A DNA stretch of 64,000 nucleotides, taken from contig NZ_AP025592.1 in the NCBI RefSeq assembly GCF_023169965.1, forward strand, positions 4,216,001 to 4,280,000. The letters run 5' to 3'. This DNA comes from Anaeromyxobacter paludicola (GTDB lineage: Bacteria > Myxococcota > Myxococcia > Myxococcales > Anaeromyxobacteraceae). This document shows, piece after piece, positions 44,843 through 52,801 of this stretch. Within the stretch, counting starts at the first letter, position 1, and every line of letters starts with the position of its first letter. The notes under the pieces are model-generated. The model was not told the origin of the DNA, did not search any database, and worked only from the letters and a program-made list of their open reading frames with translations. Position numbers and translations under genes: made by a program.

Positions 44843-45889
44843 ATGGACACGGCGGAGAAGATCCGGCTCACCAGCCTGAGCCACGGGGCCGGTTGAGCCT
44901 GCAAGATCCGCCCCGCGGATCTGGCGCAGGTCCTGCGCCACGTCGAGAGGAACCACGACCCCCGCGTGCTCGTCGGTCACGAGACGCACGACGACGCCGC
45001 CGTGTACCAGCTCACGCCCTCGCGCGCGATCGTGGAGACGGTGGACTTCTTCACGCCGGTGGTGGACGACCCCTACTGGTTCGGCCGCATCGCCGCCGCC
45101 AACGCCTTCTCCGACGTGTGGGCCATGGGGGCGCGGCCGCTCTTCGCGCTCAACCTGGTCGCCTTCCCGGTGAAGACCCTGCCGATGTCCACGCTCTCCG
45201 AGATCCTGCGGGGCGGCGCCGACACCGCCCGCGAGGCGGGCGCGCCCATCCTCGGCGGCCACAGCATCGACGACCCGGAGCCGAAGTACGGCCTCGCGGT
45301 GACGGGCGAGGTCCACCCGCGCCACGTGCTCCGCAACGTCGGGGCGAGGCCGGGCGACCGGCTCCTCCTCACGAAGCCGCTCGGCGCCGGCATCGTCACC
45401 ACCGCCATCAAGCGCGACGTCGCCCCGCGCGACGTCGCCGCGGTGGCGGTCGAGGTGATGGCCGAGCTCAACCGGATCGCCGGGGAGGTGCTGGCCGCGA
45501 GCGGCGCGGTCCACGCGCTCACCGACATCACCGGCTTCGGCCTGCTCGGCCACGCCTGGGAGATGGCGGAGGGCTCCGGCGTGCGGCTCCGCCTGGAGGC
45601 CTCGCGCGTGCCGGTGCAGGACGGGGTGCGCGAGCTGGCGGCGCAGGACGTCGTGCCCGGCGGCACCAAGGCCAACCTCGCCTGGGTGGAGCCGAACACC
45701 GACTTCGGCCCCGGCGTCGATCCGGCCCTGCGGCTCGTGCTCGCCGACGCCCAGACCAACGGCGGCCTCTTCGCCGCCGTCCCCGAGAAGCGGGCGGGCA
45801 AGCTGCTCGCCGCGCTCGAGCGGGCCGGCGTCCGGGCCGCCGACGTGGGAGAGGTGCTCGAGGGGCCGGCGCGGCTCGAGGTGATCTGA
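44843..45889 (+). CDS. selD: selenide, water dikinase (selenophosphate synthetase), selenoprotein with in-frame UGA
   Basis: Read from the ATG at 44843, the frame is open for 348 residues except for a single TGA at 44894-44896. That codon is residue 18, exactly where the catalytic Cys/Sec of SelD stands (GAG-U-ACKI, with Lys21 as the catalytic lysine). It is therefore read as selenocysteine. SelD makes selenophosphate from selenide and ATP. Further landmarks are [23 protein letters not shown] and [19 protein letters not shown] naive caller would start at a GTG at 44966 and lose the active site. selA, selB and selC are not in this window. Confidence 0.93.
44898..44930 (+). promoter_or_regulatory. 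candidate bacterial SECIS hairpin of selD
   Basis: Directly after the UGA, CCTGC pairs with GCAGG and, inside, AGATCCGC with GCGGATCT. If the top two pairs open, the apical loop is GCCCCGC, with G first as bacterial SECIS loops prefer. The loop centre is about 17 bases from the UGA. Confidence 0.7.
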
Positions 45890-48761: not shown

Positions 48762-48834
48762 GGGCGCATAGCTCAACTGGCAGAGCAATGGACTCTTAAT
48801 CCATAGGTTGAAGGTTCGATTCCTTCTGCGCTCA
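48762..48834 (+). tRNA. tRNA-Lys(CTT)
   Basis: The acceptor stem GGGCGCA/TGCGCTC has a G2-T71 wobble. The anticodon loop CTCTTAA gives CTT (48795-48797). The discriminator is A, and CCA is not encoded. Confidence 0.93.
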
Positions 48835-48896: not shown

Positions 48897-49307
48897 TCAG
48901 TCCTTCTTGCCGCCCTCGATCACCGCGAAGCGCGGCCGGCGGCGCTCCGGCGGCCGCAGCATGCCGGCCATCACCGACGGCCAGGGCAGGGCGCAGTCGA
49001 ACCGCCGCCGCTGGAAGGTGAGGCTGCAGCGGAGCCCCCACTCGTCGATGAGGACCTCACGGGTGTCGCGGCCGAGCACGAGGTTGAGCCGGACCGCCTC
49101 CTCCTCGGCGAGGTACTCCGGCAGCACCACCCCCGGCGTCGCCGGGTTCACGATGACGCACTCGATGTCCTTGGCCGTCCGGCAGGCCTCCATCATCTCC
49201 GCGTACCGGTGCTGCAGGTGGAAGAGGTGGAGTGCGCCTTCCGCCCACCCCGGGCAGCCGGGTGCGCAGGGCGCCTCCGGCGGGTGCTCGTGGGCGGCGT
49301 CCATCAT
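48897..49307 (-). CDS. sspB: SspB-like ClpXP adaptor protein
   Basis: The 136-residue protein contains, at residues 50-115, the stepwise pattern of SspB. A strand leads to TPGVVLPEYL (57-66). It continues with AVRLNLVLG, REVLIDEWGLRCSLTFQRRRFDCALPWPSVMAGML, closely parallel to the SspB core (PGV-x-VP, LN, L-x-ID-x-G, F-x-x-x-P, V-AVLAI). The C-terminus RRPRFAVIE (123-131) resembles the XB tail with which SspB docks on ClpX. SspB delivers ssrA-tagged proteins to ClpXP. tig, clpP and clpX begin 0.3 kb away on the other strand. It converges on the tRNA terminator. The N-terminal ~45 residues are divergent. Confidence 0.7.
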   Translation of the reverse strand: MMDAAHEHPPEAPCAPGCPGWAEGALHLFHLQHRYAEMMEACRTAKDIECVIVNPATPGVVLPEYLAEEEAVRLNLVLGRDTREVLIDEWGLRCSLTFQRRRFDCALPWPSVMAGMLRPPERRRPRFAVIEGGKKD

Positions 49308-49421: not shown

Positions 49422-49503
49422 GGGCGGGTGGCGGAACTGGCAGACGCGCGAGACTTAGGATCTCGTGCCGCAAGGCGTGAGGGTTCGAGCCCCTCCCCGC
49501 CCA
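49422..49503 (+). tRNA. tRNA-Leu(TAG)
   Basis: The 82-base class II tRNA has acceptor stem GGGCGGG/CCCGCCC, a long variable arm (TGCCGCAAGGCGT) and anticodon loop CTTAGGA giving TAG (49456-49458). Discriminator A; no encoded CCA. It stands 64 bases before tig. Confidence 0.95.
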
Positions 49504-49567: not shown

Positions 49568-50857
49568 ATGAAGATCGAGGTCGAAGCCATCTCCCCCGTC
49601 GAGAAGAAGGTCACCGTCGAGGTGGATCCGGAGCGGGTCGCCCGCGAGCTCGACAAGGCCTACGCCGGGCTGGGGCGCCGCGTGAAGCTCCGGGGCTTCC
49701 GCGCCGGGCACGTGCCCCGCAACGTCCTCGAGCGCCACTTCCGCGACGAGGTCGAGCGGCAGGTGGTGGACACCGTCGTGAACGCCAGCTTCGGCGAGGC
49801 GGTCTCGCAGCACGACCTGCAGCCGGTGGCCTCCCCCCGCGTCGACGTCGCCGAGCCGGGCCTCGCCGCCGGCCAGCCCTTCCGCTACAGCGCGCGCGTC
49901 GAGGTGAAGCCCCGCCTCGAGCCGAAGGACTACAAGCAGCTCGAGGTGACGCGGAAGCCGGCCGAGGTGACCGACCAGATGGTCTCGGACGAGCTCACGC
50001 GCATCCAGGACTCGCTCTCCCGGCTCGTGCCGGTCGAGGGGCGCTTCGAGGCGCAGACCGGCGACTACGCCGTCATCGACCACGAGGGCACCGTGGACGG
50101 CCAGCCGTTCGAGGGGAGCAAGGCCGAGGGCGTCACCATCAAGGTGGAGCCGGGCGACCTCACCGCCGGCTTCATCCCGCAGCTCGCCGGCGCCAAGGTG
50201 GGCGACGCGGTCGAGCTCGACCAGACCTTCCCCGCCGACGCCGGCTACGAGCCGCTCCGCGGCAAGACCGCCCACTTCCGCGTGAAGCTCCAGTCGCTCA
50301 AGAGCCGCGAGGTCCCGTCGATCGACGACGAGCTCGCGAAGAACGTCGGGCTGGAGGGGATCGAGACCCTCGACGCCCTCAAGGCCCGCATCCGCGCCGA
50401 CCTCGAGAAGCGCGAGACCCAGCGGGCCGAGGCGGAGCTCAAGGACGCCGTCATCAAGGCCGCCCTCGCGAAGAACGAGTTCGAGGTGCCCCCGGCGATG
50501 GTCGAGCACGCCATCGACGTGATGCTGCAGGGCGCCTTCTCCCGGTTCGCCAGGCAGGGGCTCGACCCCCGCCAGCTCGACCTCGACATCCCGCGGCTCC
50601 GCGCCGACCTGCGCGAGCAGGCGCTCCTCCAGGTGAAGGGCGCGCTCCTCCTCGAGTCGATCGCCGACGCCGAGAAGATCGAGGTGACCGACGACGACGT
50701 CCAGGCCGAGCTCGCGCGCATGTCCGGCGAGATGGGTATACCCCTCGCGAAGCTCCAGCAGCAGATGAAGGGCGGGAACGCCCGCAGCGCGCTAAGGAAC
50801 CGGCTCAGGGAGGATAGGGCGCTTGCCTTCCTCACCTCGGAAGCTACACTCAAGTAA
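49568..50857 (+). CDS. tig: trigger factor
   Basis: The 429-residue ribosome-bound chaperone has the three domains. The N-terminal ribosome-binding domain carries the loop [20 protein letters not shown] (the G-F-R-x-G-x-x-P signature). An FKBP-like isomerase domain starts near [21 protein letters not shown] helical C-terminal domain follows. It folds new polypeptides at the exit tunnel. The ATG at 49568 has AAAGGA upstream. It heads the classical tig-clpP-clpX-lon order. Confidence 0.95.
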
Positions 50858-50902: not shown

Positions 50903-51514
50903 ATGCCTTACATCCCGATGCCCTACGTCGTGGAGCAGACCCACCGGGGCGAGCGCAGCTACGACATCTACTCGCGCCTGCTCAAGGACCGGATCGTGTT
51001 CCTGGGCACGCCCGTGGACGACGACGTCGCCAACGTGGTGATCGCGCAGCTCCTGTTCCTCGAGTCCGAGGACCCGGACAAGGACATCATGCTGTACATC
51101 AACAGCCCGGGCGGCTCGGTGACCGCCGGGCTCGCGATCTACGACACCATGCAGTACGTGAAGCCCGCCGTCTCGACCATCTGCCTCGGGCAGGCGGCCA
51201 GCATGGGCGCCTTCCTGCTCTCGGGCGGGGCCAAGGGCAAGCGCTTCTCGGTGCCGAACTCCCGGATCATGATCCACCAGCCGCTCGGCGGCTTCCAGGG
51301 CCAGGCGACCGACATCGAGATCCAGGCCAAGGAGATCCTGCGGCTCAAGGCCCGGCTCAACGAGATGCTCGCCAAGCACACCGGGCAGCCGATCGAGCGC
51401 ATCGAGAAGGACACCGACCGCGACTACTTCATGGGCGCCGGAGAAGCCAAGGAATACGGGCTCATCGACGACGTCATCACCCAGAGCCGGGCGGTCGAGA
51501 AGAAGCCGCAGTAG
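50903..51514 (+). CDS. clpP: ATP-dependent Clp protease proteolytic subunit
   Basis: The 203-residue serine protease forms the double-heptamer chamber. The nucleophile Ser is in [12 protein letters not shown], the His in [10 protein letters not shown] and the Asp in the [20 protein letters not shown] region. [14 protein letters not shown] and [16 protein letters not shown] are standard. A GGGGAAG Shine-Dalgarno precedes the ATG. clpX begins 48 bases downstream, so they are probably co-transcribed. Confidence 0.97.

Positions 51515-51562: not shown

Positions 51563-52801
<1,239 letters not shown>

Follow-up and report, generated by a model that had tools for sequence, protein, structure and literature searches.

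A diverged SspB descendant beside tig-clpP-clpX and a shortened ssrA tag in the family of Anaeromyxobacter paludicola

SspB is the helper that delivers ssrA-tagged products of failed translation to the ClpXP protease, and SspB and the ssrA tag form a textbook pair of adaptor and degron. In the 64,000-nucleotide stretch of Anaeromyxobacter paludicola DNA analysed here (the window), a short gene close to clpP and clpX was called a divergent SspB-like ClpXP adaptor in the initial annotation. The question raised by this locus is whether its product descends from SspB and, if so, whether it would still serve the ssrA tag. The open reading frame is genuine: an ATG frame of 136 aa lies exactly at 48897..49307 (-), and its translation, MMDAAHEHPPEAPCAPGCPGWAEGAL...RRPRFAVIEGGKKD, is the protein called P0001 below, identified by open reading frame, conservation and profile match. 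The start codon may instead be the second Met (49304), the start point used by relatives. Within the family of the window genome (f1), the gene is present in 22 of 24 genomes, as a single copy in each and at 58-100% identity (70% to P0001 for the Anaeromyxobacter terrae and A. soli proteins), and the two genomes that lack it are incomplete. Both in the N-terminus and in the remainder of the protein dN is lower than dS, and the f1 gene is under purifying selection.

Direct searches did not place the protein. P0001 alone had no match beyond chance in Pfam, NCBIfam or PDB sequence searches, the f1 profile alone had none in the PDB, and neither P0001 nor its siblings reached the cut-off of the family model PF04386 (best sibling 4.9e-4). 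The homology to SspB therefore rests on intermediates, the SspB proteins of relatives in the same order (Myxococcales), where a search of relatives returned weak homologues in other families. These order relatives are ordinary SspB proteins, with PF04386 matches up to 4.1e-13 and a PDB SspB match at 7.6e-11, and hhalign joins the f1 alignment to bona fide members at 99.4% probability (E 2.7e-21) over residues 48-115, the SspB core (48963..49166 (-)), which is also supported by the fold matches. The core pattern described in the initial annotation is indeed there (TPGVVLPEYL, LIDEWG and TFQRRRFDCALPWPSV); the call itself stands as a statement of descent. Comparison with known structures gave a divided answer: the top 18 PDB folds from Foldseek are all SspB (best E 2e-3; VIA Z up to 6.3), but the AlphaFold model of P0001 that was compared is of low confidence (pLDDT 52, five sequences supplied).

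The missing Pfam and NCBIfam match of P0001 itself and the weak model would suit the view that P0001 is not an SspB and that the likeness is due to chance. We regard this as very improbable given the hhalign result, the uniformly SspB fold matches, PF04386 matches below the cut-off in 8 of 14 f1 members, and a one-per-genome replacement pattern across the order. An SspB match is found in 138 of 145 genomes of the order, single in nearly all, and the f1 form and ordinary SspB are complementary in distribution; a second SspB was looked for in the window genome and not found. In f1 the match is confined to the core (about profile positions 29-86), and elsewhere it usually extends to the tail. The tree groups f1 in one clade (100/100), which is nested within the order relatives and sits on a very long stem (3.78 changes per site). 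Copy number, complementary distribution and nesting all accord with orthology to bona fide SspB, and the conclusion that this gene is the family's only SspB, an ortholog of ordinary Myxococcales SspB rebuilt on the f1 stem, is well supported by these comparisons. We write "SspB-descended" rather than "an SspB" because the protein falls short of the family-model cut-off and lacks the terminal XB tail.

The claimed proximity to clpP and clpX holds: the tig-clpP-clpX cluster begins 260 bp away on the opposite strand, with a tRNA-Leu gene in between. The SspB-descended gene lies in the gap between tRNA-Lys(ctt) (48762..48834 (+)) and tRNA-Leu(tag) (49422..49503 (+)), both from tRNA calls, and is divergent from tig, encoding trigger factor (49568..50857 (+)), clpP (50903..51514 (+)) and clpX (51563..52801 (+)), assigned by the NCBIfam equivalogs TIGR00115, TIGR00493 and NF003745, respectively. 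The same cluster adjoins the gene in every f1 locus read far enough. In f1 the gene occupies this gap in inverted orientation; at L081 and L093 the tRNA-Leu is present and tRNA-Lys was not found beside the gene, and at L094 tRNA-Lys lies about 4 kb from it. In the relatives' loci L239-L243 and L245, tRNA-Lys and tRNA-Leu are 50-146 bp apart and followed by tig-clpP-clpX, and none of these loci has sspB between the two tRNAs. The simplest reading of this gene order would be that sspB was relocated into the tRNA gap on the f1 stem. The N-terminal zinc domain of ClpX in f1 is practically unchanged relative to the order relatives.

Several further observations were made in and around these loci. 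The window genome encodes a second full-length ClpX (G000:C1:1010950-1012194 (-)), 68% identical to the window ClpX, and both copies occur in most Myxococcales genomes searched. Also in the window, selD (selenide, water dikinase; 44843-45889 (+)) probably encodes a selenoprotein, because it has an in-frame TGA within HGAGUACK; its open reading frame as listed begins too late, at 44966. Three distant families of the phylum instead have sspB close to ssrA, at a distance of about 90-290 bp (L063/L037 on G030:C142, L200/L219 on G157:C122 and L206/L218 on G171:C2), the arrangement to be expected of an ssrA adaptor.

The C-terminus is where the initial annotation needed correction. It had read RRPRFAVIE as the protein's end and as a terminal XB tail, but the last residues are RRPRFAVIEGGKKD, which puts the motif short of the extreme C-terminus, and the terminal assignment was rejected since relatives carry that motif inside their linker. 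Comparison with these relatives makes RRPRFAVIEGGKKD (48900..48941 (-)) an XB-like tail that is the counterpart of their internal motif and not of their terminal XB tail. All 22 f1 proteins end in RPRFAVIEGGKKD or close to it, and the order relatives end in HLRLVK or close variants. RPRFAVIEGGKKD fits the relatives' internal motif best, via RRHRFAVVEGGG (L023) and ARPRFSVVSGNG (L039). An XB-like motif of this kind (RPxFLREV, RRPALVAV, RPRFSVV, RHRFAVV) lies within the linker of 37 of 40 distinct relatives' sequences, where 1000 shuffles gave a mean of 1.3 and at most 7; as many of the sequences are close kin, the 40 do not count as independent cases. P0001 thus lacks an LRVVK-type terminal ClpX-binding XB tail and keeps the XB-like internal motif; the linker and the stretch that follows the core are both lost in the f1 protein. 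Among the relatives, most Myxococcales SspB proteins (L023-L041, L125-L154) carry the linker motif in addition to the terminal HLRLVK, and the linker of L030 holds it in several copies. Within f1, the member L022 (G017:C554) has a duplicated tail, RPRFGVVEGG ... RPRPVFGVIPGGRADKKD, with a Pro/Ala repeat between the copies.

In E. coli SspB the XB tail, RPALRVVK, stands at the very C-terminus, whereas in P0001 the motif comes before the end; the two proteins share the core, through profiles, and the internal E. coli segment VMSVIDGDK aligns with RFAVIEGGKKD of f1. The ClpX zinc domain reportedly binds the XB peptide irrespective of the peptide's position in a polypeptide (PMC12373786). Truncation of E. 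coli SspB at residue 127 removes the internal and terminal motifs together (PMC7804408), so the E. coli result does not separate the two as docking sites.

The other end of the protein was gained by f1. The N-terminal Cys and His residues pointed out in the initial annotation form a pattern, HxHx5Cx3CPxW within HEHPPEAPCAPGCPGW (49245..49292 (-)), that is invariant in 22 of 22 f1 members and not found in the order relatives; Cys42 is likewise invariant in f1. This putative metal site may bind zinc, or the segment may select other cargo. In addition, about a dozen core positions, mostly 53-55, 72-85 and 97, are fixed for one residue in the relatives and for a different one in f1. The new invariant HxHx5Cx3C motif and Cys42, together with the loss of the canonical terminal XB tail, are what would be expected had P0001 left the ClpX pathway and become a metal- or redox-responsive binding protein that acts through its Cys/His N-terminus and carries a relic tail. 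We think this unlikely, as the tail is conserved in all 22 members, the ClpX zinc domain is unchanged, and the gene has kept its place at the clpXP locus since moving there. An adaptor function with ClpX is plausible.

Whether such an adaptor would still read ssrA depends on the tag. The tmRNA of the window genome encodes ANEPMALAA, as do 18 of the 19 f1 tmRNAs read (five draft f1 genomes yielded no tmRNA tag). The nineteenth, G009, encodes ANEPMINMATAAA; its tmRNA (L091, G009:C153:22807-23170) was missed by ARAGORN, has no encoded CCA and is possibly damaged or a mobile copy. The tags read in 13 order relatives all have AND followed by NVEL, NVDF or NVEH and then A[LV]AA (the ANDNVELALAA type). 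According to the tmRNA alignment, the f1 tag arose by a 6-nt deletion plus substitutions and not by a frame error. We found no report of the ANEPMALAA tag in f1 in the open-access literature, and it is new here. Elsewhere, ARAGORN gives a 28-residue tag for L227 (G191), ANNDTASYVDLTTVRVANGDMGMVACAA, which may reflect a miscall or an insertion.

Beyond the order, tags of 9 residues are confined to families without an SspB match (f11 and f19), where absence means that two SspB profiles found nothing. Counted by genome across the phylum, f1 itself excluded here and in the count by family, 0 of 22 with a recognisable SspB and 7 of 9 without one carry such a tag (p = 1.4e-5, uncorrected for kinship); counted by family, short tags occur in 0 of 16 with SspB and 2 of 4 without (p = 0.03). 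The remaining SspB-less families, represented by G154 and G165, have long tags, so tag length is no strict readout of SspB loss. The short tags of SspB-less families are varied (ANDNLALAA, ANNQLALAA and ADSQMPLAA among them; L215, L217, L220, L222, L224, L228), and the six genomes of f11 have six different ones. Differences in tag variability from one family to another were given no weight, as the SspB-less family is the more diverged (mean tmRNA identity 0.70, versus 0.88). One genome in which no SspB was found, G146 (L185/L229), has a tag identical to ANEPMALAA. Its tmRNA is 57% identical to that of f1 and up to 75% identical to those of its own family, by which horizontal transfer of the tag was rejected; for the same reason the tag probably arose twice.

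These tags bear on two accounts of what the rebuilt adaptor does. SspB of E. coli needs AANDENY for binding and does not bind degrons that lack it, and ALAA is bound by ClpX (PMC8512704). The f1 tag and the adaptor could form a co-evolved pair, in which P0001 remains an ssrA adaptor with a groove rebuilt for AANEPM while ClpX takes ALAA. Both were altered on the same stem, ANEPM is invariant across six f1 genera and kept even in the odd G009 tag, the fixed-residue switches in the core lie mostly at 53-55, 72-85 and 97, the lost linker suits a shorter tag, and alpha-type SspB genomes have similar tags (ANDEPMALAA in G162). Set against this are the identical tag of G146, the equally short tags of other SspB-less members of its family, and the loss from the f1 tag of the counterpart of E. 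coli ENY, which would leave less room between the adaptor and ClpX contacts. On balance we consider a co-evolved pair, the main rival of the reading preferred below, possible but doubtful.

We prefer, at a probability of roughly 0.48, the reading that P0001 descends from SspB and acts as a ClpX adaptor but has lost its ssrA role, or had it largely replaced or rewritten. The f1 tag is of the SspB-less kind, for which reason the protein most likely still docks on ClpX and serves other cargo; that it serves different cargo is further suggested by the loss of the DNVEL segment from the tag. In such a mechanism the tail RPRFAVIEGG would dock on the unchanged ClpX zinc domain, the Sm-like core would hold the degron, and the new Cys/His N-terminus and the changed core would choose other cargo, the ssrA role having been lost or largely replaced as the tag shrank to the form of SspB-less relatives. 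The location beside tig-clpP-clpX may couple adaptor expression to the protease. The ANEPM invariance counts against a lost or replaced ssrA role, as if the segment were still read by something. The fuller proposal, which we put forward tentatively, is that the whole family uncoupled SspB from trans-translation: its tag would have converged on an SspB-independent form, and the old adaptor, now encoded at the clpXP locus and bearing a metal-binding N-terminus, would have been remade for other ClpXP substrates.

Other SspB systems place the f1 form in context. Reviews put SspB in certain Proteobacteria (PMC8138137; PMC7804408), and SspB and trigger factor share a site on the ClpX zinc domain (PMC7804408). 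SspB of the Myxococcales and Myxococcota (PF04386) shares with f1 the core, the EWG-x-R-x-LTF-x-G-PW pattern, one copy per genome and the unchanged ClpX zinc domain, but differs in its HLRLVK end, longer Pro/Glu-rich linker, long ssrA tags, lack of the Cys/His N-terminus and position away from tig. E. coli SspB, for which the bound tag segment is AANDENY, differs from f1 in having no Cys/His N-terminus. The alpha type (Caulobacter type; L212-L214) is, like f1, a form of SspB specific to its lineage, with a tail and a tag of its own, but its tail is of the VVSLDQFRRK or DAFRRR type and the Cys/His N-terminus is absent. In Mesoplasma the ssrA tag switched to Lon instead of ClpXP, changing with the degradation route (PMC8138137); there ClpXP is absent, whereas f1 has ClpXP and kept its SspB descendant. 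The open-access literature yielded no report of SspB in these bacteria, of the f1 form or of the internal motif. Myxococcota SspB is, judging by profile matches, detectable by Pfam, so that SspB in this phylum is no novelty as such; Pfam does miss the f1 form of the window.

In f1, adaptor and tag were both altered on one branch, the unchanged ClpX docking domain provides an internal control, and sister lineages that lack SspB offer a natural comparison. The case thus makes the separation or co-evolution of a degron and its adaptor directly testable. Because the internal XB-like motif is present, the SspB proteins of the phylum possibly hold two ClpX contacts per chain.
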